Position numbers and translations under genes: made by a program. The notes under the pieces are model-generated. The model did no database searches and was not told where the DNA came from. It saw nothing but the letters and a program-made list of their open reading frames with translations. Source: Lactiplantibacillus songbeiensis (GTDB taxonomy: Bacteria > Bacillota > Bacilli > Lactobacillales > Lactobacillaceae). Taken from it: a stretch of 49,667 nucleotides of DNA. The stretch spans positions 1-49,667 of the forward strand of contig NZ_BJDL01000030.1 of NCBI RefSeq assembly GCF_005405125.1, written 5' to 3'. Within the stretch, counting starts at the first letter, position 1. Each line of letters begins with the position of its first letter. Below, piece after piece: positions 3,877 through 45,372 of the stretch.

Positions 3877-4030
3877 ACGCCGGGCAGACCAGCATGGGCT
3901 CAGTAGTGTCGTTTGACTTGGAGCGGGTGATTTTACCGGTCCTAGTCAAAGCCCGGCTTGTGAGACCGACCTGTGGCTCGCAAGCGCGACTACCACGTTC
4001 CAGCCGATCCTGTACCAACCAGAGTGACAA
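3877..4030 (+). repeat. Family A structured repeat, copy A1 (diverged)
   Basis: Full-length copy, begins ACGCCGGGCAGACC and ends CCAGAGTGACAAG. Hairpin P3 pairs TTTGACT with AGTCAAA and P4 pairs TTGTGAG with CTCGCAA. Both stems differ in sequence from other copies yet stay paired. Confidence 0.85.
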
Positions 4031-4061
4031 GCCACCTCAAACTTAACCTGATGCCAAAACT

Positions 4062-4094
4062 AAAAAACGTCCCAAGGTCATCACCTCAGAACGT
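4062..4094 (-). terminator. Terminator of the amino acid ABC importer operon
   Basis: On the minus strand ACGTTCTGAGG pairs with CCTTGGGACGT (some G-U pairs), followed by TTTTTTAG. It lies 11 bases beyond the last permease stop. Confidence 0.75.
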
Positions 4095-4104
4095 TCACAA
4101 CTAC

Positions 4105-4758
4105 TTATGCTAATTTTTTGTCCAACACCCGTGATAATACGGACAACGCGTAACAGATAATGAAGTACATGACCGCAATCATGACAAACATTGGAATAAT
4201 GTACGCGGAGTTTTGCCCATAAATAATCTGCGCATGATTCAGTAATTCCGGCAACACGATAATCGTAGCCAATGACGTATCCTTAATCAAAGAAATAAAT
4301 TGACTCACAATCGTCGGAATCGTCTTCTTAATCGCTTGTGGAAAGACAATGTGCCAAAGTGCTTGGACGTAAGACATCCCGTTAGCCCGAGCACCTTCCA
4401 TTTGCCCATAGTCGACGGCCAAAATCCCGGAACGAATGATTTCCGCCAACATCGCTGATTCGAAAATTGTCATCGCTAAGACGGCTGCAAAGATAATCCC
4501 CGGTTTAAACCCAAGATGTGGCAGGCCAAAGTAAGTAAAGAAAATGATCAAAATCAACGGTAAGTTCCGCACGATATCGACCACAAAGCCCACAACTCTT
4601 GATAAGTATTTAATCTTAACATAGCGTAAGACACCTAAAATTGAACCAATAATAAAGCTGGCAATAATCGAGATAATCGACACTTCGACAGTCACCCAGA
4701 GGCCTTCCAGCAAGAAACGCATGTTGACCCATGAATAGGCTTCAATAAAGTTTTGCAT
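4105..4758 (-). CDS. Polar amino acid ABC transporter permease (second)
   Basis: A 217-residue HisM/GlnP-type inner-membrane permease. The EAA loop that contacts the ATPase is seen near residues 117-150 (EIIRSGILAVDYGQMEGARA, then SYVQALWHIVFPQA). Five hydrophobic segments. It pairs with the 213-residue permease encoded 17 bases upstream to make a heterodimeric channel. Last gene of the four-gene operon and followed by a terminator. Confidence 0.88.
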   Translation of the reverse strand: MQNFIEAYSWVNMRFLLEGLWVTVEVSIISIIASFIIGSILGVLRYVKIKYLSRVVGFVVDIVRNLPLILIIFFTYFGLPHLGFKPGIIFAAVLAMTIFESAMLAEIIRSGILAVDYGQMEGARANGMSYVQALWHIVFPQAIKKTIPTIVSQFISLIKDTSLATIIVLPELLNHAQIIYGQNSAYIIPMFVMIAVMYFIICYALSVLSRVLDKKLA

Positions 4759-4775
4759 TCAACGCCGCCTCCTTT

Positions 4776-5417
4776 TTAATTAGCTAACCGTTTTTCTAAA
4801 TGCTGCATGTAATAACTGAGTGGTAACGTGATCACTAAGTAGAATAACCCAACAACCACGTAACTATTAATCGTATCGAGTGATAACGACGCAATCGAGT
4901 TTCCTTGATACATCAAGTCGAACCCGGCCACGAAAGCTAACACCGACGAATTCTTCACTAAGTTGATGAACTGGTTACCCAATGGTGGAATGACGATCTT
5001 AAAGGCTTGTGGCAACACGATATAGCGCATCGCTTGCCAGTAAGTCAGCCCGTTAGAACGCGCTCCTTCCATCTGACCATTATCAACTGATTGAATCCCG
5101 GCTCGAACCGTTTCAGCAATAAATGACGAGGTATAGATCGTCAACCCAATCGTCCCAGCCGTAAAACCATCAATCTTAGCCACATACATCGGAATAATCA
5201 CGTAGAAGAACATCGCAATCACTAACAGTGGGATATTCCGAAAAATTTCAATGTAAATCCGACCGATAATCCGCATGGCGTGATTCGGCAAGACTTCAAA
5301 GATCGCAAACATCGTCCCAATAACGGTACTGAAGACCAGTGCAATCACACTGGATAATAAGGTATAGCCAAGCCCCTGAATCAACTCTGACCAGTAGTGC
5401 GTTAGAATATAAACCAT
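4776..5417 (-). CDS. Polar amino acid ABC transporter permease (first)
   Basis: A 213-residue HisM/GlnP-type permease with the EAA motif near residues 105-137 (ETVRAGIQSVDNGQMEGARS, then TYWQAMRYIVLPQA). Its ATG overlaps the stop codon of the binding-protein gene by one base, indicating translational coupling. It forms the membrane channel with the next permease. Confidence 0.88.
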   Translation of the reverse strand: MVYILTHYWSELIQGLGYTLLSSVIALVFSTVIGTMFAIFEVLPNHAMRIIGRIYIEIFRNIPLLVIAMFFYVIIPMYVAKIDGFTAGTIGLTIYTSSFIAETVRAGIQSVDNGQMEGARSNGLTYWQAMRYIVLPQAFKIVIPPLGNQFINLVKNSSVLAFVAGFDLMYQGNSIASLSLDTINSYVVVGLFYLVITLPLSYYMQHLEKRLAN

Positions 5418-6256
5418 TAGCGCGACGCCTCCTTATAATTGAAGCCGGCGACATTACCGAACCATTTCTTCAATAAACGGTTATAAGTCCCATTAGCTTC
5501 GATTTCTTTAAGTGCTGCATTCACTTTATTTTTGAATGGTGCTTGCCCTTTGTTGATGGCAATCCCATAAGGTTCTTTGGTAAACGTGCCACCCACAACT
5601 TCGTAGCCGGGGTTTTCAGTCGCCATCCCATATAAGATCCCATTATCAGTCGTTAGTGCCACCCCTTGACCAGACTTGAGGGCAGTCATCGCTTGCGCGT
5701 AGTCTGATAATTCCAGCACTTTAGCTTTAGGCGCAAACTTTTTAATATTCGCAACCGAGCTAGACCCCGTTACCCCTAAGACCTTAGTGCCAGCTTTATT
5801 CAAATCTTTGACCGACTTCACCTTACTGCCTTTTTTGACTAATAAGGCTTGGCCAGCATCGAAGTATGATTCTGAGAAATCAACTTGCTTCTTCCGTTCC
5901 GGACTAATCGTCATCGTTGCGATAATCGCATCGATATTCCCATTCTTTAATAACGGAATCCGCGTTTGACTCGTAACTTGCACGAACTTCGCTTTCCCAT
6001 TTTTACCTAGGATCTGCTTCGTAATGGCCGTGGCCACATCGGCATCGAACCCTTTGATCGTATTATCCTGAACGTCCATTAATCCAAACAGCTTCGTGTC
6101 GGCTTTGACGCCCCAAGTAATCGTATTGCTGGCCTTATCATTCGTTAAAACATCTTGTTGTGATAACGATTTGCGACCACCGCATGCGGTTAAGACGAGC
6201 GTTAAGACGCCCAACATGCCGAGCACGCCCAGGTAACGTTTTAACTTTTTCATCAA
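5417..6256 (-). CDS. Amino acid ABC transporter substrate-binding lipoprotein
   Basis: A 279-residue SBP_bac_3 family protein. Residues 1-25 are a lipoprotein signal peptide with lipobox LTAC, so the mature protein is anchored at Cys25. Typical family sequences include FDADVATAITKQIL near residue 70, RIPLLKNGNIDAIIATMTIS near residue 103 and the following RKKQVDFSESYFDAGQ. The family binds glutamine, glutamate, aspartate or related amino acids. The operon resembles glutamate/glutamine importers, but the ligand is not proven by sequence. Confidence 0.88.
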   Translation of the reverse strand: MMKKLKRYLGVLGMLGVLTLVLTACGGRKSLSQQDVLTNDKASNTITWGVKADTKLFGLMDVQDNTIKGFDADVATAITKQILGKNGKAKFVQVTSQTRIPLLKNGNIDAIIATMTISPERKKQVDFSESYFDAGQALLVKKGSKVKSVKDLNKAGTKVLGVTGSSSVANIKKFAPKAKVLELSDYAQAMTALKSGQGVALTTDNGILYGMATENPGYEVVGGTFTKEPYGIAINKGQAPFKNKVNAALKEIEANGTYNRLLKKWFGNVAGFNYKEASR

Positions 6257-6274
6257 ATGACCTCCCCTGGCTGC

Positions 6275-7015
6275 TTAGTGTGTAATAATTTTGCTTAAGA
6301 ATTGACGGGCCCGTTCATTGGTCGGTTCGCCGTCAAAGAATTGTTCTTTGCGGTCATCTTCCAAAATCTGACCATCTGCCATGAAGACCACGCGATCGGC
6401 AACTTCACGCGCAAAGCCCATTTCATGGGTGACGACCAACATTGTCATACTGGAGTCAGCCGCAACATTCTTCATCACGTTCAATACATCATCAATCATT
6501 TCTGGATCAAGCGCTGAAGTTGGTTCGTCAAATAACAAACATTTTGGTTTCATTGCCAACGACCGCGCAATCGCGATTCGTTGTGATTGCCCCCCGGAGA
6601 GTTGACTTGGTAAATTACCGGCTTTATCCGCAAGACCGACACTGTCTAGTAAATCCATCGCTAACTTTTTATTCTCAGCTTCTGGCCGCTTTAAGACGAG
6701 TCGTGGTGCAATCATAATATTCTCTAAAACGGTTTTATTCGCATATAAATTAAAATGTTGGAAGACCATGCCGACGTTTTTACGAATCTTGTTCATATCC
6801 GTCTTCTTGTCCGCCAAGTCATAGCCATTGACTAGTAACTGTCCTGATTGAACGCGTTCCAACCCATTGACGGTTCGAATCAAGGTACTCTTTCCGGAAC
6901 CAGACGGCCCGATCAAAACAACCTTTTCACCTTCATTAATCGTTAAATTAATATTCGTGAGGGCGTGAAAATCACCATAATACTTTTCGACGTTGTGAAA
7001 TTCGATCATTGACAT
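6275..7015 (-). CDS. Polar amino acid ABC transporter ATP-binding protein
   Basis: A 246-residue GlnQ-type ATPase. Walker A GPSGSGKST near residue 36, Q-loop VFQHFN, signature LSGGQSQR near residue 135, Walker B CLLFDEPTSALDP and H-loop VVTHEMGFA are all present. The ATG at 7015 was chosen because GAAGGTGA lies seven bases upstream; an in-frame ATG at 7039 has no such site. First gene of the operon: ATPase, binding protein, two permeases. Confidence 0.92.
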   Translation of the reverse strand: MSMIEFHNVEKYYGDFHALTNINLTINEGEKVVLIGPSGSGKSTLIRTVNGLERVQSGQLLVNGYDLADKKTDMNKIRKNVGMVFQHFNLYANKTVLENIMIAPRLVLKRPEAENKKLAMDLLDSVGLADKAGNLPSQLSGGQSQRIAIARSLAMKPKCLLFDEPTSALDPEMIDDVLNVMKNVAADSSMTMLVVTHEMGFAREVADRVVFMADGQILEDDRKEQFFDGEPTNERARQFLSKIITH

Positions 7016-7122
7016 ATAACAGTCACCTTCGCTTTCCAATCAGTTCAAAACTGATGTTTAGAATTATTGCATTAATATTTGATGTTAAAGAATTCTTATT
7101 CTTCGTTAATGCTATTTAAATA

Positions 7123-7151
7123 GTTTAATACACAATTAGTCATTTTGTCAA
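7123..7151 (-). promoter_or_regulatory. Likely promoter of the amino acid ABC importer operon
   Basis: On the minus strand TTGACA (plus 7146-7151) is followed after 17 bases by TTAAAC, or after 15 by TATTAA, about 110-130 bases before the ATPase start. The -35 is perfect and the -10 weak. The rest of 7040-7286 shows nothing recognisable. Confidence 0.4.
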
Positions 7152-7286
7152 AATATAGGCTATTATTGTTCATAATAACTAAAATAGTGCTAATTCACGG
7201 CGAATCTTTCGTTTAAAATAGCTTAAATCAGCGGTCTAGTTGAACAAAGCAAGCAAAATTAAGCTTAATATTCGTTATTTGCAACA

Positions 7287-7333
7287 AAAAAATAGCCGGT
7301 AACCCCATTTTTACCGGGAGTTTACCGACTGTT
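7287..7333 (-). terminator. Terminator of the 50-residue peptide gene
   Basis: On the minus strand a GC-rich hairpin (CGGTAAACTCCC with GGGGTTACCG) is followed by CTATTTTTTTG. It lies 14 bases after the small gene's stop. Confidence 0.75.
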
Positions 7334-7346
7334 TTCTCATTTTATT

Positions 7347-7499
7347 TTAATCTTCATGGTTAATTTTTTGCTTCATCTGATAGATAATCAAGCCCAAATC
7401 GCCGACACCAATCACAACTAAACCATTCCAAACCAATAAGGCATCCCACGGCGCCATTGCTGGCTGTGCCAAGGTATGGCTGATAATACCTAACATCAT
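7347..7499 (-). CDS. Small membrane peptide, 50 residues, unknown function
   Basis: An open frame starting ATGATG, preceded by GAAAGAAAGCGGGGGCG and followed by its own terminator. The product has one hydrophobic segment (about residues 15-38, with LVWNGLVVIGVGDLGLIIY) and a short charged tail KQKINHED. No family was recognised. The dedicated terminator supports a real gene. The stretch 7500-7786 after it holds the promoter of the next gene and a possible broken frame at 7622-7735. Confidence 0.55.
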   Translation of the reverse strand: MMLGIISHTLAQPAMAPWDALLVWNGLVVIGVGDLGLIIYQMKQKINHED

Positions 7500-7786
7500 C
7501 GCCCCCGCTTTCTTTCAGTTAATGGCTTTAGTCTACTGACTACCAATCACTTAAAAAGTGGCTTAAAAGAAAAAAGTTCTGAAATTTTTTCGATTTTCGC
7601 TAATGTTATCCCATCAACTAGCCACTTGATAAATTCTCACGTATTCTTGAATTAGTCCGTGGTCGCTTAGTCACAATTAAGAAACACGGTCACCTGCTGT
7701 TAGCTAATGGCCAGTTAGTCAATTCAGAGATTTAGCGGTACACTAGTTTTTGTAACCGATAACAGTAATGGAAGGAACTTTTAATT

Positions 7787-8455
7787 ATGATTAAAACGAT
7801 TGCTTTTGATTTCAACGGCACCATGTTTTTTGACACAGCGCTACAACGCCAAGCTTGGGGCCAAATGCTCAAACAAACCTTTAACCATCAAATGACCGAA
7901 GCGGAATTCTTCAACGATATCGCTGGTCGTAATAATCAATACACCTTTGACTTATTCGTCGACCAACCGCTCCCCGCTAACAAAGTTGCCACTTTAGCTG
8001 ACGAAAAAGAAGCTTTGTATCGTCAAATTTGTCTAGAACAACCTGAAATTTTCCATTTGGCACCCGGTTTACCCGCCTTTTTAGATCGGTGTCATGACGC
8101 TGGTATTAAAGTGAATATCGCGACAGCCTCACAATTAAAGAATGTCGAGTTTTTCTTTGACCACTTGAACCTCAGTCACTGGTTCGACTTTGACCAAGTG
8201 GTGATTAACGATGACAGCCTGCCTGGTAAGCCAGCCCCAGACATGTATTTACAAGCGCTGAAGCACATTGGCGGCGTACCTGCGACCAGCATGATTCTGG
8301 AAGACTCGCTGTCGGGGATTCAAGCTGCGAATAATGCCAAGGCCGCCCAGACCGTCTTAGTTCATGCACCCGAAGAGGCTATTCCGGCCATGCCCGCTGG
8401 CGTTAAGATTGATCAAACCATTACGGATTATCATCATCTATTTGAAACCCTTTAA
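7787..8455 (+). CDS. HAD superfamily hydrolase, beta-phosphoglucomutase-like subgroup
   Basis: A 222-residue cytosolic HAD-IA protein with an N-terminal cap insert. Motif I is FDFNGT (residues 7-12), motif II TAS near residue 115, motif III GKPAPD near residue 149 and motif IV EDSLSGI near residue 170. The second aspartate of the usual DxD is asparagine (N10), while the nucleophile D8 is kept, which could change the reaction or its rate. GGAAGG lies 8-9 bases before the ATG. The gene is monocistronic, with a perfect terminator behind it. Substrate unknown. Confidence 0.8.
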   Translation: MIKTIAFDFNGTMFFDTALQRQAWGQMLKQTFNHQMTEAEFFNDIAGRNNQYTFDLFVDQPLPANKVATLADEKEALYRQICLEQPEIFHLAPGLPAFLDRCHDAGIKVNIATASQLKNVEFFFDHLNLSHWFDFDQVVINDDSLPGKPAPDMYLQALKHIGGVPATSMILEDSLSGIQAANNAKAAQTVLVHAPEEAIPAMPAGVKIDQTITDYHHLFETL

Positions 8456-8460
8456 CCCAC

Positions 8461-8500
8461 AAACAGCGCGTTACCAATTTCGATTGGTAACGCGCTGTTT
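8461..8500 (+). terminator. Strong Rho-independent terminator after HAD gene
   Basis: AAACAGCGCGTTACCAAT pairs perfectly with ATTGGTAACGCGCTGTTT around a TTCG loop, six bases after the stop. Confidence 0.9.
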
Positions 8501-8598
8501 TGAGTTTAATTTTCGCTTCAGTTGGGCTAGATTGAGGCTGGAACATCATGACACTTTTAAAGCAACTGATCCACTCACTAAACTGTTTCAGTTAATCA

Positions 8599-8747
8599 AC
8601 GCCGGGCGGGCCAGAATTGGCTCAGTGGTGTCGTTTAGCTTAGTCGCGGTTTTCCGACTTAGATAAAGCCCGGCTTTCGAGACCGCCTTGTGGCTCGGAA
8701 ACGTGGCCACCACGTTCCAGCCGATTCTGGACCAACCAGAGTGGCAA
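8599..8747 (+). repeat. Family A structured repeat, copy A2
   Basis: Full-length copy between convergent genes. The closing stem GGGCCAGAATTGGCT pairs with AGCCGATTCTGGACC. P4 pairs TTTCGAG with CTCGGAA. P3 has one mismatch. Confidence 0.85.
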
Positions 8748-8777
8748 GCAAACACTAACTAACCTAAATATCGTTTG

Positions 8778-9773
8778 CTAGAAGGCGTGATCAGTTGAAC
8801 CGCCGTTAATAATCGTTAACACATCGTCCAAGCTAATGTCGACCATGTTCTTAACCGCTAAGTTGGTGTAGAAGCCAACGTGTGGCGTGATAATAACATT
8901 TGGCATTTGCATCAATTGCGCGACTAAGTCATTTTGCAAAGGTTCACCAGAATGATCTTGGTTAAATAACGCCGCTTCGCCTTCAACCGTATCTAAAGCC
9001 GCTCCAGCAATTTCACCAGCTTTTAAGGCCGCAACTAAGGCTTTCGTGACGATAACGGGCCCACGTGACGCATTGATAATGAACGCATCAGACTTCATTA
9101 ATTTCAAGGCTGGTCCATCGATCAAGGCTTGCGACGTTGGATTCAAGTCAACATGTAGGGTCACCACATCAGCCTGCTTCAATAGGTCTTCTTTGGTGTC
9201 GACATACGTCAAAACATCTTCTAATTCAGGCCGCTTTTTCACATCATAAGCGATCACTTTGGCACCTAAGCCATGGAATAAATGCGCCACGGTACCACCA
9301 ATCCGGCCGGCACCAATAATGCCGACGGTTAATGACCGAATTTCGCGGGCTTGTAGACCGGCCCAGCGGAAATCTTGTTGATTAATCCGTTGGTCGAAGA
9401 GTTCCAAATTCCGAATCAGCCGCATCGTCTGGGTTACCGCCATTTCAGCGACTGAGTTAGGCGAGTATGCAGGCACGTTGGTCACCGTTAAGCCGGCCGC
9501 TTTCGCAGCGGCTAGGTCAATCGTATCAACCCCAGCCGTCCGACTAGTTAATTGTTTTAAACCATAGTCGGCCAATTGTTGGTAAACTTTGGGATCATCA
9601 CCAATGGCACTCCGTTGTTGAATGACTAAGCCATCGTACCCTTTTGCCAAATGGGCCGTTTCTGGGTGAAATTCTAAATCATTGGTATCAACTTGAACGT
9701 TATTTTTAGCAGCCCAATCTTTAATCGCCGCTTCTTCATCATCACGAACACTAAACATTAAAATTTTCGTCAT
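8778..9773 (-). CDS. D-2-hydroxyacid dehydrogenase (D-lactate dehydrogenase type)
   Basis: A 331-residue NAD-dependent enzyme that reduces 2-oxo acids to D-2-hydroxy acids. The NAD site GIIGAGRIGG lies near residue 151. The catalytic set is visible: Arg in NASRGPVI near residue 235, Glu in DTVEGEAALF near residue 264 and His in ITPHVGFYT near residue 296. Its ATG overlaps the TAA of the upstream aminotransferase, so the two are co-translated. The pair suggests conversion of amino acids to 2-oxo acids and then to hydroxy acids such as phenyllactate or hydroxyisocaproate. The main cellular D-LDH would be expected elsewhere. Confidence 0.85.
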   Translation of the reverse strand: MTKILMFSVRDDEEAAIKDWAAKNNVQVDTNDLEFHPETAHLAKGYDGLVIQQRSAIGDDPKVYQQLADYGLKQLTSRTAGVDTIDLAAAKAAGLTVTNVPAYSPNSVAEMAVTQTMRLIRNLELFDQRINQQDFRWAGLQAREIRSLTVGIIGAGRIGGTVAHLFHGLGAKVIAYDVKKRPELEDVLTYVDTKEDLLKQADVVTLHVDLNPTSQALIDGPALKLMKSDAFIINASRGPVIVTKALVAALKAGEIAGAALDTVEGEAALFNQDHSGEPLQNDLVAQLMQMPNVIITPHVGFYTNLAVKNMVDISLDDVLTIINGGSTDHAF

Positions 9774-11324: not shown

Positions 11325-11377
11325 CGCTTAATTTGATATACTAGTCTTACATACTGGAATTGATTGGGTTGTTGTAA

Positions 11378-11528
11378 TTGCCACTCTGGTTGGTCCAGCA
11401 TCGGCTGGAACGTGGTGGCCGCGTTTGGAAGCCAAAGAACGGTCTTCCAAGCCGGGCTTTATCTAAGCCGGAAAAACACCGGCAAAGATAAACGACACCA
11501 CTGAGCCAATGCCGGCCCGCCCGGCGTT
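11378..11528 (-). repeat. Family A structured repeat, copy A3
   Basis: Full-length, inverted relative to A2. Read on the minus strand, P3 pairs TTTATCT with AGATAAA and GCCGG with CCGGC; P4 pairs TTGGAAG with CTTCCAA. The closing stem carries GCAT/ATGC in place of GAAT/ATTC. These are paired substitutions relative to other copies. Confidence 0.85.
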
Positions 11529-12380: not shown

Positions 12381-12387
12381 GCTGATT

Positions 12388-12513
12388 AGCCGAAACGTGT
12401 TCGGCAAGCCTGAGACCTGCGCTTGCTACGCACCTAGCACGACTCGGAAAGTTCACCGAGTCCTACTAGGTACTAGGCAATGCTCAGTCTCACCCCGGCT
12501 TACCTCACACTCT
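12388..12513 (-). repeat. Family C structured repeat, copy C1, covers a gene's stop codon
   Basis: About 126 bp. Nested stems: GCCGAA/TTCGGC, AAGCC/GGCTT, TGAGAC/GTCTCA, CCTAG/CTAGG and ACTCGG/CCGAGT. It overlaps the last codons and TGA of the membrane protein gene 12505-13326. It is about 85% like C2 by eye. Oriented as a 3' UTR element of that gene. Confidence 0.75.
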
Positions 12514-13326
12514 GTCCTCAAACGCCACTTGCGCCGAAATCTGATAATCGCCCGGCTGTTCGATTGTCGACGTTCGCCCAGCGATTTTTTCCATTCCGCC
12601 CGTAATTAGCGTTGATGCCAGGTACAATTTATAATCTTCATGCGCATCATGCACATCGGTCAAGCCAACGCGGGTGATGTGACCAACTGGTAGTTGGTCA
12701 ATCTGGTTAATCCCGGCATAAATCACCAGTTTATGGTTTTCTAATTTCAATTGTGAATACGGAATTTGAATGCCTTGACCGATTGCCTTAACAGGTTCGC
12801 CAGTTGACCGGACTTGCGTCATAATCGCCGCATCACTCATGCCACCATAGTCTAACCGAATAATATTGGCTGCTTGGAGCTGATCAACAATTTGATGGAC
12901 ATTATGCTGTTCCGCATACGAAGTCTTCACCGCAGCGGGTAATAATTCTTGACCGTCAAAGATCCCGTTTGCCGGAATATACGGCTGGTTCTGGTTTTGA
13001 CCAACGCGACTTTGCTTTTCAGCTTCAATGGCTTCTTTCGGTTTACCACCTAATAACTTTTCAATCTTGGGTGACAAGTCAAACTTAGCCTGCCGATTCG
13101 TGAAGTAATAAATGATATTTAAAACTAAAAAGTAAATGATCACTAGGAAAACTAACATGTAGATAATCCCACGCAACCAGCTGCCATTTTGCATTAAGCG
13201 AATCGCCACATAGCCAAGGTAGCAGTTACCGGCTGCCCCTAACAAGGTATAGATTTGGTTTTTTATCTTAACATTGACGTTAACATAACCAAGGGCATGG
13301 TTAATCATATCTAGAATACTAAACAT
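12505..13326 (-). CDS. Membrane-anchored protein of unknown function, lactobacillus-type
   Basis: A 273-residue protein with two or three hydrophobic segments in residues 25-75 (LLGAAGNCYLGYVAIRL, then IIYMLVFLVIIYFLVLNIIY) and a soluble part of about 190 residues. The soluble part is rich in beta-like, Gln/Ile/Val sequence. The family could not be named with certainty. Its ATG overlaps the TAA of the upstream Ser/Asp-rich gene (TAATG), so the two form an operon and probably work together at the membrane. The last codons (Arg-Val-stop) lie in repeat C1. Confidence 0.7.
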   Translation of the reverse strand: MFSILDMINHALGYVNVNVKIKNQIYTLLGAAGNCYLGYVAIRLMQNGSWLRGIIYMLVFLVIIYFLVLNIIYYFTNRQAKFDLSPKIEKLLGGKPKEAIEAEKQSRVGQNQNQPYIPANGIFDGQELLPAAVKTSYAEQHNVHQIVDQLQAANIIRLDYGGMSDAAIMTQVRSTGEPVKAIGQGIQIPYSQLKLENHKLVIYAGINQIDQLPVGHITRVGLTDVHDAHEDYKLYLASTLITGGMEKIAGRTSTIEQPGDYQISAQVAFEDRV

Positions 13327-15526: not shown

Positions 15527-15541
15527 TGTCTATGGTGGCAT

Positions 15542-15668
15542 TTGCCGAAACGTGTTCGGCAAGCCTGAGACCTGCGCTTGCTACGCACTTAGCACCACTC
15601 GGAAACCCCACCGAGTAATGCTAAGTACTAGGCAATGCTCAGTCTCAACCCGGCTTACCTCACACTCT
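15542..15668 (-). repeat. Family C structured repeat, copy C2, touches a stop codon
   Basis: About 127 bp, same nested stems as C1. The central stem is CTTAGCA/TGCTAAG, where C1 has CCTAG/CTAGG: a T-A pair replaced by C-G. It ends in CACACTCTA, overlapping the TAG of the NUDIX gene on the minus strand. Confidence 0.75.
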
Positions 15669-16976: not shown

Positions 16977-16999
16977 ACTTATGTATAACTTCAATACTA
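16977..16999 (+). repeat. Left imperfect direct repeat flanking composite B2-A4
   Basis: ACTTATGTATAACTTCAATA here recurs, with small changes, at 17400-17421 (ACTATGTATAACTTCGGTAC) on the other side of the composite repeat, in the same orientation. It could be an old target-site duplication. Confidence 0.5.
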
Positions 17000-17180
17000 C
17001 GCTTGGTGCTAGTTGAGATTGCCGCGTGCCGGTTGGGTCCTAAAATGCTGGAACGCCATGGGCCATTTCGAAGCCTCAAAACCGGTCTTCAAAACTGACC
17101 TTGGTCTAAGTCCGAGCAGACCACTCGCACTAAGACTAACGACACGGCTGAGCATTTTAGGACCCAACCTCTCGGCTAAA
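16999..17180 (-). repeat. Family B structured repeat, copy B2 (part of composite)
   Basis: Inverted copy. Begins with terminal sequence ACGCTTGGTGCTAGTTGAG, then the closing stem GGTTGGGTCCTAAAATGCT pairing with AGCATTTTAGGACCCAACC. P3 loop orientation is as in B1. It is joined to A4 by a linker with CTCGGCTAAATTTGAGG. Confidence 0.85.
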
Positions 17181-17221
17181 TTTGAGGTCGACAATAGATA
17201 GTCAGTAACTCCTGTTAATTA

Positions 17222-17390
17222 ACGCCGGGCGGGTCAGAATTGGCTCAGTGGTGTCGTTTATCTTGGTCGGTGATTTTCCGACTTAGATAAAGCCCGGCTT
17301 TCGAGACCGCTCTGTGGCTCGAAAACGCGGCCACCACGTTCCAGCCAATTCTGGCCCAACCAGAGTGGCAATTTAAACCAACTAGCACCA
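17222..17390 (+). repeat. Family A structured repeat, copy A4, with terminal inverted repeat
   Basis: Full-length copy, an archetype of the family: P3 TTTATCTTGGTCGG with CCGACTTAGATAAA; P4 TTTCGAG with CTCGAAA. It is followed by AAACCAACTAGCACCAAGC, which is complementary to the outer end of B2, so the pair forms one unit with inverted ends. Confidence 0.88.
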
Positions 17391-17399
17391 AGCATAGGC

Positions 17400-20222: not shown

Positions 20223-20372
20223 ACGCCGGGCGGGCCAGAATTGGCTCAGTGGTGTCGTTTATCTTGGTCGGTGATTTTCCGACTTAGATAAAGCCCGGCT
20301 TTCGAGACCGCACTTTGGCTCGAAAACGCGGCCACCACGTTCCAGCTGATTCTGGCCCAACCAGAGTGGCAA
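20223..20372 (+). repeat. Family A structured repeat, copy A5
   Basis: Full-length copy nearly identical to A4, between convergent genes. Ends CCAGAGTGGCAAG. Confidence 0.88.
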
Positions 20373-27693: not shown

Positions 27694-27844
27694 TTGCCAC
27701 TCTGGTTGGCCCAGAATTGGCTGGAACGTGGTGGCCACGTTTGGAAGCCAAAGTACGGTCTTCCAAGCCGGGCTTTATCTAAGTCGGAGAACCACCGACT
27801 AAGATAAACGACACCACTGAGCCAATTCTGGGCCGCCCGCTGTT
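27694..27844 (-). repeat. Family A structured repeat, copy A6 (part of composite)
   Basis: Full-length inverted copy. P4 is of the TTGGAAG/CTTCCAA type. It is joined to B3 by a linker with TAACTAACAGGA and CATTTAGCCGAGAAG. Confidence 0.87.
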
Positions 27845-27879: not shown

Positions 27880-28062
27880 GTCATTTAGCCGAGAAGTTGG
27901 TTCCTAAAATGCTCAGCCATGTCGTTGGCCTTAGTCCGAGCAAACCACTCGCACTAAGGCCAAGGTCAGTTTTGAAGACCGGGCTTGGCTTCAAAATGGC
28001 CCATGGCGTTCCAGCGTTTTAGGAACCAACCAGTAGGCGGCAATTTCAACTAGCACCAAGCG
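27880..28062 (+). repeat. Family B structured repeat, copy B3 (part of composite)
   Basis: Full-length copy: closing stem GGTTCCTAAAATGCT with AGCGTTTTAGGAACC, inner stem GCCATG/CATGGC, P3 TTGGCCTTAG/CTAAGGCCAA, P4 TTTTGAAG with CTTCAAAA. The P3 loop is inverted relative to B1 and B2. Ends CAACTAGCACCAAGCG. Confidence 0.87.
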
Positions 28063-28226
28063 TATAGAAACGATAAATTAAGCATTGAACAGTATCGACA
28101 TACCAGACACTACTACAATTATGTCCTACCACTTTAACAGCGTTATCCGTGTAACCGTATACATATGCATTTGATTTGAATCGGGCTAGGCCACTAAAGG
28201 CAACCAAAACAACGGTTTGTCGGTGA

Positions 28227-28288: not shown

Positions 28289-29194
28289 TTGAAACAAGGC
28301 ACAACGATCATTACATTGGATAACGGTTACCATTTATGGACCAATACCCAAGGTGAAGGTGACATTCATTTACTCTGTCTCCATGGTGGCCCTGGTGGCA
28401 ATCATGAATATTGGGAAAACTTCGGTGAAAAGTTAGCTGATTTAGGCGTCCAAGTCACCATGTATGACCAATTAGGCTCATGGTACTCCGATCAACCCGA
28501 CTACTCTGACCCTGAAATTGCTAAGAAATACCTCACTTATGACTACTTCTTGGATGAAGTTGAAGAAGTTCGTCAAAAGTTAGGCATCGACAAGTTCTAC
28601 TTAATCGGTCAATCATGGGGCGGCGCTTTGACAATGCTCTATGCCTTGAAATATGGCCAACACTTAAAAGGTGCCATCATTTCTAGCATGGTCGATAATA
28701 TTGACGAATACGTCGTCAACGTTAACAAATGTCGTGAAGAATGCTTGCCAGCCGATGCGGTTGCCTATATGAAGCAAAAAGAAGCTGAAGGCAATTGGGA
28801 TGATCCCCAATATCAAAAATACGTGGACGTGTTAAACGCTAACTACGTGGACCGCAAACAGCCAACAGCCATCTCGCATTTGATCAACACGATGGCTACC
28901 CCCGTTTACAACGCCTTCCAAGGTGACAACGAATTTGTCATCACTGGTAAGTTAAAGGAATGGGATATCCGGGACCAAATCCACAACATCAAAGTGCCAA
29001 CATTATTGACCTTTGGTGAACATGAAACCATGCCACTCGACTCAGCTCGGCGCATGGCACGTGATATTCCAAACTCACGCTTAGTTACCACGCCAAACGG
29101 TGGTCATCATCATATGATTGATAATGCCCCGGTTTACTTCGACCACTTGGAACAATTTATCAAGGATGTTGAAGACGGCAGCTTTAACAAATAA
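28289..29194 (+). CDS. pepI: Proline iminopeptidase PepI
   Basis: A 301-residue alpha/beta-hydrolase of family S33 that removes N-terminal proline from peptides. The oxyanion motif LHGGPGG lies near residue 33, the nucleophile in IGQSWGGAL near residue 108, and the acid and base follow in FGEHETMP and GGHHH near residues 247 and 274. The TTG at 28289 is taken as start because TTAGGTGATC, a full match to the 16S 3' end, lies five bases upstream. A GTG at 28280 overlaps that site. Together with PepX it handles proline-rich casein peptides. Confidence 0.9.
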   Translation: MKQGTTIITLDNGYHLWTNTQGEGDIHLLCLHGGPGGNHEYWENFGEKLADLGVQVTMYDQLGSWYSDQPDYSDPEIAKKYLTYDYFLDEVEEVRQKLGIDKFYLIGQSWGGALTMLYALKYGQHLKGAIISSMVDNIDEYVVNVNKCREECLPADAVAYMKQKEAEGNWDDPQYQKYVDVLNANYVDRKQPTAISHLINTMATPVYNAFQGDNEFVITGKLKEWDIRDQIHNIKVPTLLTFGEHETMPLDSARRMARDIPNSRLVTTPNGGHHHMIDNAPVYFDHLEQFIKDVEDGSFNK

Positions 29195-29201
29195 TTAGCT
29201 C

Positions 29202-29238
29202 ATACCGCTAACCTACTTTGGGTTGGCGGTATTTTTTT
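29202..29238 (+). terminator. pepI terminator
   Basis: ATACCGCTAACC pairs with GGTTGGCGGTAT (one G-U), then TTTTTT. Confidence 0.87.
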
Positions 29239-29239
29239 C

Positions 29240-29332
29240 AACTTAGATAACCCCGGCTTGTGGAGGACCGCACTTTGGCTCCCAAACGCGGCCACCACGT
29301 TCCAGCCGATTCTGGCCCAACCAGAGTGGCAA
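29240..29332 (+). repeat. Family A structured repeat, copy A7, 3' half only
   Basis: The copy starts within P3 (ACTTAGATAA) directly after the pepI terminator; the closing stem's left arm is missing. P4 reads TTGTGGAG with CTCCCAA, paired with one bulged T. Confidence 0.8.
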
Positions 29333-32795: not shown

Positions 32796-32975
32796 ACGCC
32801 GGGCGGGCCAGAATTGGCTCAGTGGTGTCGTTTCACTTAGTCGGTGGTTTCCCCGCTTAGTGAAAGCCCGGCTTTCGAGACCGCACTATGGCTCGAAAAC
32901 GTGGCCACCACGTTCCAGCCGATTCTAGGCCAACCAGAGTGGTAACTTAAACCGACTAATACCAAACAGCCACTC
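32796..32975 (+). repeat. Family A structured repeat, copy A8
   Basis: Full-length copy upstream of the polyphosphate operon. P3 is TTTCACT with AGTGAAA, different from the TTTATCT/AGATAAA of A4 but still paired. It is followed by TTAAACCGACTAATACCAAA, a diverged terminal sequence like that of A4. Confidence 0.87.
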
Positions 32976-36805: not shown

Positions 36806-36807
36806 GT

Positions 36808-37761: not shown

Positions 37762-37799
37762 TCCACTGATTCCAGATCAACAAATGAGTTAACTTGGAA

Positions 37800-37838
37800 T
37801 TGCCACTCTGGTTGGACCAGCATCGGCTGGAACGTGGC
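37800..37838 (-). repeat. Family A remnant, copy A9
   Basis: Only one arm (TTGCCACTCTGGTTGG, then CATCGGCTGGAACGTGG) is left; it is followed by TAACTAACGCCG, which resembles the other end of the element. The internal hairpins are deleted. Confidence 0.7.
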
Positions 37839-37870
37839 AGTTTTAACTAACGCCGTATCAACAAAACAAT

Positions 37871-38845: not shown

Positions 38846-38874
38846 AAAAGCGGTATCTCAATTGTGAGATACCG
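38846..38874 (-). terminator. Terminator of the tRNA-Asn gene
   Basis: On the minus strand GCGGTATCTCA pairs with TGAGATACCGC around a 3-base loop, then TTTTG. Confidence 0.8.
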
Positions 38875-38897
38875 CCAAACCAACTAATATTGACTGA

Positions 38898-38969: not shown

Positions 38970-38985
38970 ATTTTGCTACTCAATA

Positions 38986-39015
38986 GTTATAACACATTGT
39001 GCCATTGAAATACAA
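38986..39015 (-). promoter_or_regulatory. tRNA-Asn promoter
   Basis: On the minus strand TTGTAT (plus 39010-39015) and TATAAC (plus 38986-38991), 18 bases apart. Confidence 0.55.
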
Positions 39016-39136
39016 TCTTTTTTTAATTTTTCACCATTTTTTCTCATTGTAGTTCAGCTTAAAACGTAAAAGCACCTGATAATTAGCAAGCCATTCACAG
39101 GTTGCGCAAAATATTTTCGCAACTAACTTATAACAA

Positions 39137-39931
39137 TTACTTAACCGGCGTTAATAATCCCAGCCATGACATCACCGTAAAGTCTTGATCGTGCAATTGT
39201 TTTTGCAATTCATTGCGGATTTCAATCGGACTTAAGGTCGTGCGCAAATCAAAATAATAATCACCACGCTGATTGTGCATCGTTGGCAACCACTTGCCTA
39301 ACTTTGTTAAGCCACTGACATCTGGGGCTTGGGTCTGATGGTGAAATTGGATATGCAAGGTCGGCTGCCAAGTCGCTTGCCGGTCACCCGTCCGTTGTAT
39401 CAACTGGCAGACTTGCCGATGATAGCGTAAGGCTAAGCGGCCCCCCATAATCATGCCAACTAACATTAATCCGCCACCAAGTCCCAGCGCACCTAATAAT
39501 AAGTTTGTTAAGACCGCATTTGCGTTACCCTGTGCGCTCCCGAAAACGGCGGCACACATTAGTAACCATAACCCAATGACCCACGCATTCATCGAGTTAA
39601 TCGCTAAATCGCGTGCCCAACGCGTGACTTTTAAGCGTTCTTTGTCATCAGCCGTGACGACTCGCCGCCCAATAACCGGTTGTCCAGTATACACGACACC
39701 AACACCCAGCCGTTCATAGGTATAGCTCGTTAACGGCTTAAATTGCGCCGCTAATGGTTTTAATGCGACAACTGGTACATATTCAGTCATCACCGTTACA
39801 ACGTGCTCAGCAGGCTTAAACTGATAATGACAGCCCTTGACAGCTGTCAACTGCCAACCATGATGGGCCTGACGATTCAACCAACGACTTTCGGCTAATG
39901 ACCCTTTCAAAAAGAAACGTCTTTTTTGCAT
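39137..39931 (-). CDS. DUF2812-like membrane protein
   Basis: A 264-residue protein. The N-terminal 100 residues (RRFFLKGSLAESRWLNRQAH, then GWQLTAVKGCHYQFKP) match the DUF2812 pattern of an aromatic-rich cytosolic domain. Two membrane segments follow (about residues 108-130 and 140-160) and a soluble tail. In Firmicutes such proteins often lie beside PadR regulators; none is seen here. The ATG at 39931 was chosen because GGAGG lies eight bases upstream of it. Confidence 0.6.
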   Translation of the reverse strand: MQKRRFFLKGSLAESRWLNRQAHHGWQLTAVKGCHYQFKPAEHVVTVMTEYVPVVALKPLAAQFKPLTSYTYERLGVGVVYTGQPVIGRRVVTADDKERLKVTRWARDLAINSMNAWVIGLWLLMCAAVFGSAQGNANAVLTNLLLGALGLGGGLMLVGMIMGGRLALRYHRQVCQLIQRTGDRQATWQPTLHIQFHHQTQAPDVSGLTKLGKWLPTMHNQRGDYYFDLRTTLSPIEIRNELQKQLHDQDFTVMSWLGLLTPVK

Positions 39932-40193
39932 GCGCATCGCCTCCATTATGTGACCTGAAGCCTATCCAATAATTAGTTAAGGCCTTATTATATTCATATT
40001 GGTCTATTTTTCAATTATTTGATCACACGCTGATGATCCGGACAGAAAGCTTGATAATCAATAAAGTGTGTTTTGTTGACAATGGCAGCCCTTTCCTAAA
40101 GATTTGATTGGTCTAGGTTACCAACTTCATGAAGACCCCACTAATTGCTAGTTAATTGCTGTTAGACCTTATTTATTAAATTTCTTATATTTA

Positions 40194-40222
40194 TTCACAA
40201 ATCTAACAAATCATGCTAATCT
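40194..40222 (+). promoter_or_regulatory. glpK promoter with extended -10
   Basis: TTCACA at 40194-40199, 17 bases, TAATCT at 40217-40222 preceded by TGC. The rest of 39947-40193 holds nothing recognised. Confidence 0.6.
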
Positions 40223-40243
40223 TAAGCATAAATAGCGTTCAAT

Positions 40244-40257
40244 TAAAAGCGCTTTCA
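40244..40257. promoter_or_regulatory. cre (CcpA) site in the glpK leader
   Basis: TAAAAGCGCTTTCA fits the cre consensus at 13 of 14 positions. It lies about 15 bases after the expected transcription start, a position that blocks elongation. Confidence 0.7.
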
Positions 40258-40279
40258 ATACGACTAAAATAACTCATGA

Positions 40280-41809
<1,530 letters not shown>

Positions 41810-41815
41810 ATCAAA

Positions 41816-41863
41816 AAAGCCTAATAACGTGGACTTTCTAAGTTCATATTATTAGGCTTTTAT
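41816..41863 (+). terminator. glpK terminator
   Basis: AAAAGCCTAATAA pairs with TTATTAGGCTTTT around a loop of about 20 bases. Confidence 0.85.
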
Positions 41864-41891
41864 ATTTATAATTTTTAGCAGGAAAATACGA

Positions 41892-41981
41892 TTACCAGTA
41901 AAAGTAAATTAACCCTAAACAAATTAACAAGATAAAAATTAGTACAACCACTATAAATAGTTGCTTAATAAATTTATCCAT
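41892..41981 (-). CDS. Hydrophobic single-segment peptide, 29 residues
   Basis: Minus-strand ATG at 41981 follows AAGGAAGTTTTAG. The product starts MDKFIKQL, has one membrane segment of about 18 residues made of Ile, Val and Leu, and ends IYFYW. Its size and shape recall type I toxins and small regulatory membrane peptides, but there is no clear family match. It lies beyond the glpK terminator on the opposite strand. No terminator of its own was seen apart from the glpK hairpin. Confidence 0.5.
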   Translation of the reverse strand: MDKFIKQLFIVVVLIFILLICLGLIYFYW

Positions 41982-42077
41982 CTAAAACTTCCTTAATTTT
42001 ATTATTAATCAAGTGCACTCGCCACGTAGATAGTACAATGCAATTGCACGTAATTAAACTAGATGCATTTATCATTT

Positions 42078-44852
42078 TTAACGGGCCAGCCACCAAGTCT
42101 TAATGCCCGAGATCACTAGTACTGGCACTGCCGGCAACAAGATTACCATTACATACACGCCATTGCTCAACCGGGCTGTGCCCATCACGTCATTAAAGAA
42201 TGGCGACAACGTTACGAGCAATGAACTAACTGCCGAGAACGCCACAGCCATAACCAGTTTAGAATTACTAAACGGATTGCGATGGAACAATGTTTTAGAG
42301 CTCCGGGCATCGAATACGTGCCATAGCTGGCCAAAGACTAAGGTTAAAAAAGCCACGGTTTGCGTCGCTTCCACTGACAGACCACTACTGGCTGCCCAGA
42401 TAAAGGCGATAAAGACCACGGCCCCCATCACGATCCCCCGTAACAAGACGCGGCCTAAGAGACCATCGGCTAAAATTGACGCTTGGCTATTCCGCGGTGG
42501 GACTTGCATCAGATCACCTTCCGGCACGTCGTAACCCAAGGCAAACGATGGTAAGGCATCGCTGACCATATTGACCCACAGGACCATTAACGCCGTCAAC
42601 GTCGGTGTATTACTGCTGACCTGACCAATATCATGGGTGATCAGTAACAATCCTAGTAATAGCGACAAGACTTCGGCCACATTGGTCGTCAATTCGTGAC
42701 GCATAAAGTTTTTAATATTGGTGAAAATCGTCCGGCCAGCTTCAACGGAATGTTCAATCGTGGTGAATTTATCATCCATCAAAATTAGATCCGCCGATTC
42801 TTTGGTTACGTCCGTTCCGTTTATCCCCATCGCCACACCAATATCCGCTACTCGTAACGCTGGTGCATCGTTCACACCATCCCCGGTCATCGCCACCACT
42901 TCACCTTGGCGTTGCAGTTGTCGCACAATTCGTTGCTTGTGTGCTGGTGAGACGCGCGCATAGACGCGGACATCAGGGACCCGCGCAAACAACTCATCAT
43001 CGCTCAGTTGGTCGATTTCACGACCTTCTAACACTTGGTTAGCCGTAGCCGTTTGGTCCAACATTCCTAGTTTAGCCGCAATCGCTTGGGCCGTTTTGGC
43101 GTGGTCTCCGGTGATCATGACCACCTTAATCGCCGCTGCTTGCAAGGTCGCCACCGAATGCCGAACTTCTTCACGTGGCGGATCAATAATCCCAGCTAGA
43201 CCAAGCAGCGTCAAGTGTTGTTCCAAGTCAGCCATCGGTAAATGCAACGCTTCGTCCGCCGTAATGACCCGTTCACTCACTGCCAACGTTCGCAACGCCT
43301 CAGCTGCAAAGGCTTCAATCTTCGCCATAAACGTCGCACGTCCAGTTTCGATTGGAACTAACTGATCAGCTATCGCTAAATAATCAGCATGTTGTAACAA
43401 GACATCGGGTGCACCTTTTGTGATGACCTTGTACTGATCCCCCTGCTTAATCACGACACTCATCATCTTCCGAGTACTATCAAACGGAAATAGTCGCAAG
43501 ATATCAACATCATTTGCCCCAGACTGATCAAGCAAAGTTGCTCGCTCTAAACCAGCTTTCTGGCCTAATACGACTAAAGCGACATCGGTCGGGTTACCAA
43601 ACGGCACGTAACTGCCTTGCTCATTTTTTGCCACCGTTGCTTCATTATCCAAGATACTCGCCGTTATAAAAGCTTGTGCTACTCCCAACTGATCAGCTGG
43701 GGCCAGCTCACCCAATGGTTCATAACCGCGACCTTCGACTTCAAAATCCTGTCCATTAGCAAAAAAGCGTGTTACGGTCATTTCATTCTTCGTTAACGTC
43801 CCGGTCTTATCTGAGGCAATAAACGTCGTCGCCCCCAAAGTTTCGACACTGTTTAATGACTTGATCAAGCCATTGCTCTTTGACAAGACAGTCGCGCCAA
43901 TCGTTAAGACAATTGAGAGCACCGCTGGCAAAGCATCGGGAATTGCGGCAACCGCTAATGCAATTGCCGTAGATAATAAAGCCGCAAAGCTCGCAACTGA
44001 GAAGCTCCCGGTCGTCAACCAAGTCTTCACGGTTCCAGCAATCAAGGTGAATAAAACGATACCGCCCGCCACCAACATCAGCTTGTGCGTCAAGCCGTTG
44101 ACGGTCTTTTCAATAGGCGTTAGTTGAGTCGGTGTATCCTTTAGTAACCCAGCAATCTTCCCCAATTCCGTCTGCACACCGGTTGCCACCACAACTGCAT
44201 AACCGTTGCCACTCGTCACGGTCGATCCCGAATAACCCATATTCTTGCGATCACCCAAGTCAGTATCGGCTGGAACCGCGTCAACCTGCTTCGCAATCGG
44301 CAACGATTCGCCAGTTAAATGGGCCTCCAAAACCGCTAACTCCGAAACTTTGAGCCAGCGCACATCGGCTTCAATAAAATCGCCAGTCTTCACGCTGATA
44401 ATATCGCCGGGTACTAATAAATTCGCCGCGACTTTATCCCAATTGTCATCCCGTAAGACTGCAACTTGATGATTGTTCATCGCTTTTAAACTCGCTAACG
44501 ATTTGCGAGCATTCGCTGTCTGCCAGACTGATAAACCACTATTGATTAAGATCAAAATCATAATTGCAATCGCTTCATAGAAGGACGACCAAGCATGTTG
44601 CACATCACCAGTCTGAACTAAGTCATAACCGCCACTGACTAATGACAGTGTGACCGCTAACAGTAAGATAATCACGAGCGGTTCTTTAAAGCTGCGCAAA
44701 AAAACGAGCCAAATCGGGGTCGGCGGCACGACTGGCAATTCATTCTTGCCAGTGGTCACTAATCGTTGTTGCACGTCCGTACTCGTTAAACCGGTCTGCC
44801 GGTCGGTTTTTAAATCCGCTAAGACGGTTGCTTTAGATTGGTCATAAAACAT
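42078..44852 (-). CDS. P-type (P2A-like) cation-transporting ATPase
   Basis: A 924-residue pump with 10 membrane segments. TGES lies near residue 180, the phosphorylation site SDKTGTLT near residue 346, KGAPD near residue 504 and the hinge TGDGVNDAPALRVADIGVAM near residue 632. The layout is that of Ca2+ pumps (SERCA/PMCA type), but the M4 motif is AIPDALPAV instead of PEGLP and M6 has NMVSDALP. The ion is therefore uncertain (calcium, sodium or other). ATG at 44852 chosen from AAAGGAGGACCACTT; an earlier frame start lacks a site. Single gene. Confidence 0.88.
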   Translation of the reverse strand: MFYDQSKATVLADLKTDRQTGLTSTDVQQRLVTTGKNELPVVPPTPIWLVFLRSFKEPLVIILLLAVTLSLVSGGYDLVQTGDVQHAWSSFYEAIAIMILILINSGLSVWQTANARKSLASLKAMNNHQVAVLRDDNWDKVAANLLVPGDIISVKTGDFIEADVRWLKVSELAVLEAHLTGESLPIAKQVDAVPADTDLGDRKNMGYSGSTVTSGNGYAVVVATGVQTELGKIAGLLKDTPTQLTPIEKTVNGLTHKLMLVAGGIVLFTLIAGTVKTWLTTGSFSVASFAALLSTAIALAVAAIPDALPAVLSIVLTIGATVLSKSNGLIKSLNSVETLGATTFIASDKTGTLTKNEMTVTRFFANGQDFEVEGRGYEPLGELAPADQLGVAQAFITASILDNEATVAKNEQGSYVPFGNPTDVALVVLGQKAGLERATLLDQSGANDVDILRLFPFDSTRKMMSVVIKQGDQYKVITKGAPDVLLQHADYLAIADQLVPIETGRATFMAKIEAFAAEALRTLAVSERVITADEALHLPMADLEQHLTLLGLAGIIDPPREEVRHSVATLQAAAIKVVMITGDHAKTAQAIAAKLGMLDQTATANQVLEGREIDQLSDDELFARVPDVRVYARVSPAHKQRIVRQLQRQGEVVAMTGDGVNDAPALRVADIGVAMGINGTDVTKESADLILMDDKFTTIEHSVEAGRTIFTNIKNFMRHELTTNVAEVLSLLLGLLLITHDIGQVSSNTPTLTALMVLWVNMVSDALPSFALGYDVPEGDLMQVPPRNSQASILADGLLGRVLLRGIVMGAVVFIAFIWAASSGLSVEATQTVAFLTLVFGQLWHVFDARSSKTLFHRNPFSNSKLVMAVAFSAVSSLLVTLSPFFNDVMGTARLSNGVYVMVILLPAVPVLVISGIKTWWLAR

Positions 44853-45066
44853 AAGTGGTCCTCCTTTATTGGGCTTCAGTAACAAGTTAAGCTTAACAAA
44901 TCGTTTAATTCGTGCCAACTATAAGCCACTTATACCGATATTGTTCATTACTTGAAGACGACGATCTAAATAAACTTAATATGAAGGAATTTACCCTAAA
45001 CCGCCAGCTGAAATTTCATCATTTTCTAATCTTGGAACAGCCGTTTACAGTAAACTACGCTCAGCG

Positions 45067-45165
45067 CTAGGTGAACTTGCTGCCTGCCGGTTGGTTCCTA
45101 AAACGCTGGAACGCCAACGACACGGCTAATCATTTTAGGAATCAACGGCTCGGCTAAATTTGTGG
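45067..45165 (-). repeat. Family B repeat, copy B4, internally deleted
   Basis: The closing arms remain (GGTTGGTTCCTAAAACGCTG and ATTTTAGGAATCAAC), but the two hairpins between them are gone: GGAACGCC is joined directly to AACGACACGGCT. Linked to A10 by the same linker (CTCGGCTAAATTTGTGG) as B2-A4. Confidence 0.8.
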
Positions 45166-45199
45166 TCAACAAGAGATAATCATTAATCCCCGTTAGTTA

Positions 45200-45372
45200 A
45201 CGTCGGGCGGACCAGAATTGGCTCAGTGGTGTCGTTTATCTTAGTCGGTGATTTTCCGACTTAGATAAAGCCCGGCTTGGAAGACCGCACTTCGGCTTCC
45301 AAACGCGGCCACCACATTCCAGCCAATTCTGGTCCAACCAGAGTGGCAATTTAAACCAACCAGTACCAAGAA
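45200..45372 (+). repeat. Family A structured repeat, copy A10 (composite with B4)
   Basis: Full-length copy, P3 TTTATCT/AGATAAA, P4 TTGGAAG/CTTCCAA; followed by TTTAAACCAACCAGTACCAA, the terminal sequence. The other gene-free sequence from 44853 to 45452 is the composite plus AT-rich DNA. Confidence 0.87.

Follow-up and report, generated by a model that had tools for sequence, protein, structure and literature searches.

A folded intergenic repeat of Lactobacillaceae forms the paired arms of a probable MITE-like mobile element

The window analysed here, a stretch of 49,667 nucleotides, is contig 30 of the 3.03-Mb genome of Lactiplantibacillus songbeiensis (the source genome), and its intergenic regions carry two related repeat families, A and B (Table 1). 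The sequence-only reading had described family A, as eight full and two partial copies lying between genes in both orientations. All eight full copies were recovered, both by detection of direct and inverted repeats and by the covariance model at 122-161 bits, scores that are high by construction because the model alignment includes those copies. One of the partial copies, at 29240, stands as a weak match, whereas the other, at 37800, reduces to a 44-bp arm end with a non-significant model match. Both orientations occur, and the placement between genes extends to a 450-kb sample of the source genome, where 437 of 13,352 element bases (3.3%) fall inside open reading frames (ORFs) of at least 100 amino acids, against 82% at random places. 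The compensatory variants reported for the stems of hairpins P3 and P4 are likewise present as described.

Table 1. Arms, paired units, terminal repeats and remnants of the element in the window.
Feature	Position	Strand	Evidence
B arm cut by contig start	1..158	+	100.7 bits; terminal repeat 142-158, 1 mismatch
A arm, single	3877..4024	+	cmsearch 122.0 bits; repeat families D2/D3
A arm, single	8599..8741	+	cmsearch 150.4 bits
A arm, single	11384..11527	-	cmsearch 156.6 bits
Complete paired unit, 399 bp	16998..17396	.	terminal repeat, B arm (-), 47-bp spacer, A arm (+), terminal repeat
Terminal inverted repeat TACGCTTGGTGCTAGTT	16998..17014	+	exact match
B arm of complete unit	17027..17174	-	cmsearch 126.2 bits
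A arm of complete unit	17222..17365	+	cmsearch 156.9 bits
Terminal inverted repeat, opposite end of complete unit	17380..17396	-	1 mismatch
A arm, single	20223..20366	+	cmsearch 157.1 bits
A arm of second paired unit	27700..27843	-	cmsearch 161.3 bits
B arm of second paired unit	27890..28035	+	cmsearch 125.8 bits
Terminal inverted repeat of second paired unit	28048..28064	-	exact match
Damaged A arm	29172..29326	+	33.6 bits; D2 member, 70%; good only from ~29235
A arm, single	32796..32939	+	cmsearch 151.9 bits
Arm end remnant	37794..37868	-	95% identity to 11372-11415 over 44 nt; model E=1
B arm, internally deleted, partner of 45200	45085..45152	-	24.9 bits; BLAST remnant
A arm	45200..45343	+	cmsearch 161.4 bits
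B arm cut by contig end	49581..49667	-	19.0 bits; repeat family D7

Family B, which the earlier reading had missed, lies at 1-129, 17027-17174 and 27890-28035, with remnants at 45085-45152 and 49581-49667. By the covariance model its fold is that of family A, with mostly different stem sequences. The two families align at about 70% identity over some 156 bases (BLAST); the loops CTCAG, GTGTCG, GACCG and CGTTCCAGC are equal in both, and P1 to P4 differ by changes that are complementary. A 5' core motif common to A and B copies, GCTCAGNNGTGTCGTT, has 12 occurrences in the window when two mismatches are allowed, compared with 0.21 expected. A and B together make up one mobile unit, and the window repeats are arms of this small element, of which many copies exist in the genome and in other lactobacilli.

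Another intergenic repeat, with an apparent fold of its own, is found at 12385-12513 and 15540-15668 (+). Its inner hairpin pairs ACCTAG with CTAGGT in one copy and ACTTAG with CTAAGT in the other, as judged by eye; it has 44 match places in the source genome at 69-100% identity, some of them partial, and no Rfam match above chance. A 124-bp stretch of one relative, on source contig C10 near 37.4 kb, is missing in Lactiplantibacillus dongliensis. Beside the repeat in the window lies a DUF6681 gene (12505-13326, minus strand), a member of a family of unknown function.

The paired layout prevails among close neighbours in the source genome. In a sample of 449,667 bases, comprising the window and parts of three contigs and searched at E≤1e-4, 36 of the 39 sets of neighbouring matches no more than 1 kb apart form divergent inverted pairs, and one of the three exceptions is a copy cut by a stretch boundary. 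At 30 loci of other genomes, leaving out one overlapping antisense match, 14 of 18 neighbours are divergent and four lie on the same strand, with spacers of 58-381 bp. Spacers in the source genome measure 39-563 bp (26 of 36 are at most 100 bp) and their longest complete ORF has 53 amino acids; the longest in 15 spacers of other genomes, present in one spacer, has 86. At 563 bp, the longest spacer of the source genome leads into an ORF of about 160 amino acids that extends into an arm, and some spacers may therefore have a coding role. Across nine orthologous pairs, spacer identity is 85%, with numerous gaps. The 39 paired units listed within the size range considered (300-650 bp) span 313-422 bp. 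Ends of the TACGCTTGGTGCTAGTT type gave 52 exact matches of an extended pattern in the source genome (27 forward, 25 reverse), and the backward control of that pattern gave none. In two other genomes looked at, the terminal inverted repeats differ from these.

Among the 39 paired units with both ends, 24 have duplication-like borders, counted at a direct-repeat score of at least 6, whereas 200 permutations gave 3.1 such units on average and 7 at most. The repeated strings have 6 to 13 letters and some include element end bases; the remaining 15 units are without a clear duplication. The complete unit of the window scores 5, under the threshold used, and by eye it has an imperfect direct repeat of about 25 bp on both flanks. 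Over five contig pairs we compared the source genome with L. dongliensis, the closest named relative met (88-94% DNA identity in aligned pieces of a 20-kb query). One pair of about 380 bp in L. dongliensis is absent from the source genome, where the site is clean; at its borders in L. dongliensis a 13-bp sequence is duplicated that the source genome has once. Elsewhere single arms or pair middles are missing on one side, mostly by what look by eye like deletions. At one site a whole unit lies in opposite orientations in the source genome (C1:52471-52808) and in L. dongliensis (C8:52110-52445), through either inversion or independent insertion. Two larger differences between these genomes contain ORFs that by eye resemble a surface protein, a reductase and a regulator; both were considered as cargo-bearing pairs and rejected. 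No transposase was found: none of the 52 end matches lie inverted 1-4 kb apart, and neither the source genome nor the 450-kb sample gave a larger element with the same exact ends; a transposon with diverged ends would escape this list, because it holds exact ends only.

The 99 matches in the sample occupy about 3.0% of its bases and extrapolate to about 660 copies in the genome, in which the model search gave at least 150 matches, all 150 scored candidates being among them. With coding DNA taken as ORFs of at least 100 amino acids (82.3% of the sample), arms account for about 16% of the non-coding DNA by our own arithmetic. In Lactobacillaceae, the first covariance model matched at least 83 of 301 genomes in 13 of 40 genera (E≤0.01), and a broader one at least 97 of 301 in 14 of 40 (E≤0.001). 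Absence from a given genome is uncertain, because at most 7-10 candidates per genome were scored, under strict filters. In a sample of the order, 24 of 395 genomes matched, all of them Lactobacillaceae, and in a sample of the class (398 genomes) only the source genome did; neither sample, with the family's share in them uncounted, gave a match outside Lactobacillaceae. Two genomes of the source genus (G071 and G211) had none among their scored candidates with either model, and neither model found one in 188 kb of a third, which has matches elsewhere. The pattern, along with model matches, was found in Lactiplantibacillus dongliensis, L. nangangensis, L. daoliensis and L. pingfangensis, and in Levilactobacillus zymae, L. 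humaensis and L. lindianensis.

A phage or plasmid origin was rejected, since 50,697 phage records and 72,556 plasmid records yielded nothing that matched the window unit. A related arm is carried by 22 plasmids, 16 from Lactiplantibacillus (L. plantarum, L. pentosus and L. paraplantarum among them) and six from Ligilactobacillus (L. salivarius among them; match over 54% of the query), and the model confirmed two plasmid arms as single arms; arms of two other groups had no plasmid match. On one plasmid IS30 genes lie 2.2 and 0.6 kb from the arm, which we take as unrelated. An L. plantarum plasmid has a single arm (L383:3494-3666) before a heavy-metal P-type ATPase gene on the same strand, and 15 Lactiplantibacillus plasmid records have a match of identity equal to this arm. 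Hits of a 14-base pattern in viral contigs (at least 120 stretches) are likely due to chance, and a single hit in a Halioglobus metagenome-assembled genome lacks the second motif.

Each arm, of about 170 nt, is predicted to fold into a basal stem (P0/P1), an internal loop in which CA faces GUUCC, a stem P2, and a three-way junction that bears two hairpins: P3, which is long and contains a fixed U·U mismatch, and P4, which has a bulged A. An initial alignment, covering 34 copies, was made without structure and gave 44 RNAalifold pairs, 26 of them with double changes; it was the basis of the covariance model used to collect copies elsewhere. The key alignment, also structure-blind (MAFFT), holds 39 copies, two from the window and one from each of 37 other genomes, with the fetched loci L233, L258 and L355 left out; its 37 outside copies were collected with a model from the source genome and its relatives, which favours copies sharing that model's loops. 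Here 47 of the 52 predicted pairs changed on both sides, compared with 33.4 in shuffles, 94.2% of the cells are paired (69.4% shuffled), the covariation score is 0.606 (0.167 shuffled), and none of 500 shuffles reached any of five measures. Sliding the partners by one to three columns lowered the paired cells from 94% to 31-50%. These comparisons strongly support the earlier claim that conservation acts on the fold rather than on the sequence, and evolution appears to hold the arm to one elaborate fold. The claimed near constancy of unpaired parts is borne out as well: GUUCC is unpaired and constant in 39 of 39 copies, the CA facing it, the U·U mismatch and the bulged A are each kept in 38, and a number of unpaired sites vary less than most positions in the stems. 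One junction strand varies, reading UCG in 22 copies and AAA or AAG in 15. This constancy hints at a candidate role of the loops as a binding or catalytic core.

Maintenance of the fold after insertion was assessed on orthologous arms, with 71 source and 53 L. dongliensis matches giving 34 arms that could be matched up between the two. Five arms were left out (four from two sites with swapped arms, one mis-mated), and the remaining 29 were aligned by the covariance model, which leans towards the fold; expectations assume an equal number of substitutions scattered randomly over paired positions. These arms show 34 compensated pairs (3.3 expected), 30 broken pairs (80.7 expected) and 28 pairs changed on one side but still paired (36.0 expected); for the 26 arms of at least 85% identity the numbers are 21 versus 1.8, 23 versus 57.9 and 25 versus 27.9. 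Five sites have 3-7 changed pairs each, and seven have one isolated compensated pair. The blocks of 3-7 pairs point to gene conversion among copies, a process that could look like selection in place. The fold thus persists after insertion, whether through selection, through conversion from working copies or through a combination of the two. Arms in two other genomes look as if homogenised one by one: at L362, L364, L365 and L367 (G128) and at L369-L371 (G049), one arm is nearly identical among loci whose spacers and outer flanks have diverged, while the other arm in G128 is 86-90% identical.

Because of the paired layout, the terminal repeats, the duplication-like borders and the empty site, we consider the element to be, with a probability of roughly 0.7, a non-autonomous MITE-like mobile element of Lactobacillaceae built of a divergent pair of folded arms. 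The unit would be a head-to-head inverted pair around a mostly short, apparently non-coding spacer, closed by terminal inverted repeats; it would insert between genes, duplicating about 7-13 bp of the target, and would presumably be moved by an enzyme acting in trans. At least some single arms would be units whose partner was deleted. The fold may be used single-stranded on the CTCAG strand, most likely as RNA, and could serve in recognition or protection, a function for which each of the two arms would have to retain it.

Whether the fold acts on one strand can be judged from its imperfect pairs, since symmetric action in double-stranded DNA should make G·U and A·C pairs equally frequent. In the structure-blind alignment G·U cells outnumber A·C cells by 66 to 25 (23 versus 6 columns, p=0.002), and by 37 to 13 in P2-P4 alone; model-fitted alignments gave 99 to 20 and 182 to 43, in part through one loop-closing column. 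Against single-strand action stand the rare one-sided changes inside young subfamilies, where neither strand is favoured (G·U 37, A·C 29). We take these counts to mean that one strand, as RNA or as single-stranded DNA, has long been under selection, and that the comparison has little power where copies are recent. The fold might matter as DNA, with arms exposed single-stranded in replication or transfer serving as recombinase or transposase substrate in the manner of attC sites or IS200-type ends, an alternative that we regard as possible but rather doubtful. Arm deletions, some of them between short repeats, and the unit inverted relative to L. dongliensis would suit it. The conserved loops, however, lie on opposite strands, so that no single strand shows both ends alike, and target duplications are present, which to our knowledge are not expected from IS200-type transposition. 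A Y1 transposase partner was rejected, as none of the three IS200-type (Y1_Tnp) genes of the source genome has an arm within 1.5 kb. The resemblance of the inverted doublets to REPINs, as these are characterised in the consulted part of their description (PMC3116915), speaks for the DNA alternative.

It is also conceivable, but unlikely, that the arms are RNA of use to the host, which would keep them because the fold insulates, stabilises, processes or terminates transcripts that cross it. The preservation of the fold at orthologous places fits this explanation, as do the near identity of one arm type amid diverging flanks and spacers in two other genomes and the state of single arms, which are preserved about as well as paired ones: identity to consensus is 0.900 for single A arms (n=15) and 0.921 for paired ones (n=30; p=0.26). 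A decay of singlets as in REPINs is therefore not apparent, and a small difference in the expected direction is possible. For the mobile-pair reading, under which single arms should be immobile, this is a point against, as is the count of partner remnants, seen upstream of only six of the 15 single A arms, one of the six being a neighbouring unit. Against a use to the host, no clear preference for a gene arrangement was seen, with 61 of 63 units (two are without a neighbour) lying in 37 co-directional, 13 convergent and 11 divergent gaps, compared with a background of 121, 26 and 46 intergenic gaps (chi-square p=0.28), and single arms being sense to co-directional neighbours in six cases and antisense in eight. 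Since neither gene arrangement nor orientation stands out, a leader or gene-bound function was rejected, and a terminator was rejected for want, by eye in the alignments, of a consistent T-run after the 3' ends. Arms or pairs are, moreover, often missing on one side between sister species, and the two source-genus genomes noted above (G071 and G211) had none among scored candidates.

That the divergent pair of complex folded RNAs, with its shared invariant internal loop, itself spreads the element to hundreds of places, as binding platform, ribozyme or template, seems improbable to us; RNA as the driver of spread is nevertheless an open and more exciting possibility, under which, if true, about a sixth of the non-coding DNA of the source genome would consist of the element. 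Rfam found only a tRNA in the window and had no match to the window unit at E≤5; on eight diverse loci its hits were T-box leaders and two matches ascribed to chance, all of them away from the arms. Thus neither a ribozyme nor any other Rfam family matches an arm of the window unit or these loci, in agreement with the earlier remark that the repeat was not recognised as a named RNA family; the Rfam match named there as a refuting outcome did not arise, and a known RNA family was rejected. A resemblance of the CUCA loop to the twister-sister ribozyme was considered and finds no support in Rfam. The T-box leaders near element copies (L362:1495-1739 and L094:5177-5395, one above and one below the gathering score) are ordinary. 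That the covariation is an artefact of palindromic origin, model-fitted alignment or gene conversion around an unselected fold is highly improbable, for although copies are related by descent, conversion-like block replacements occur and the orthologue test used a model-fitted alignment, the key alignment was structure-blind, sliding and shuffling do not reproduce the signal, some unpaired sites vary less than the majority of stem positions, and broken pairs in orthologues stand at 37% of random expectation.

The MITE-like element of two folded arms is a folded repeat that is genuine, mobile and widely distributed. It has no match in Rfam 15, and no description of it was found among the open literature matches listed, as titles and abstract starts, with subscription papers mostly outside. 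In our judgement, a copy number of 99 in 450 kb combined with a branched fold across 14 genera is rare. Hundreds of natural variants per genome are available for structure-function work in cultivable food bacteria, and the role of a folded arm in a mobile element is directly testable.

REPINs offer the nearest working model by analogy. According to the consulted part of their description, they are inverted REP doublets moved by RAYT transposases that also occur as singlets and show compensatory stem changes, and they share with the element an inverted doublet as unit (here 36 of 39 neighbours divergent), an extragenic location, hundreds of copies, singlets and compensatory stems (PMC3116915). 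The element differs in its arms, which measure about 170 nt and have fixed loops and a three-way junction where a REPIN has a short palindrome, in its terminal inverted repeats and target duplications, and in its single arms, which are not measurably more decayed. A RAYT (Y1) transposase flanked by repeats was not found, the arms lying more than 1.5 kb from all three Y1_Tnp matches.

The bcr1 repeats of the Bacillus cereus group, as far as the consulted part of their description goes, have 147-167 bp, dozens of copies, a conserved secondary structure and traits of mobile elements, and thus resemble the element in size range, occurrence in many copies, conserved fold and traits of mobility (PMC2267715). 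Compared by description only, the element is set apart by its inverted pair and its different bacterial family. The covarying motif MRSC-65-2, for which an RNA or DNA form was left open, likewise occurs in many copies per genome; from the consulted part of its description it is a single long stem from diverse phyla, whereas the element is branched, has an invariant internal loop and was found only in Lactobacillaceae (PMC11109978). Classical MITEs such as RUP, NEMIS, ERIC and EFAR appear in the consulted part of one account as small, non-coding and bounded by terminal inverted repeats (PMC3733652). The element shares their small size, their apparent lack of coding sequence and their terminal inverted repeats, and unlike them has an interior conserved as two folds across 14 genera, with different ends in the other genomes looked at. 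We know of no description of bcr1 as an inverted pair of two folds, and classical bacterial MITEs, like the element, carry a target duplication.
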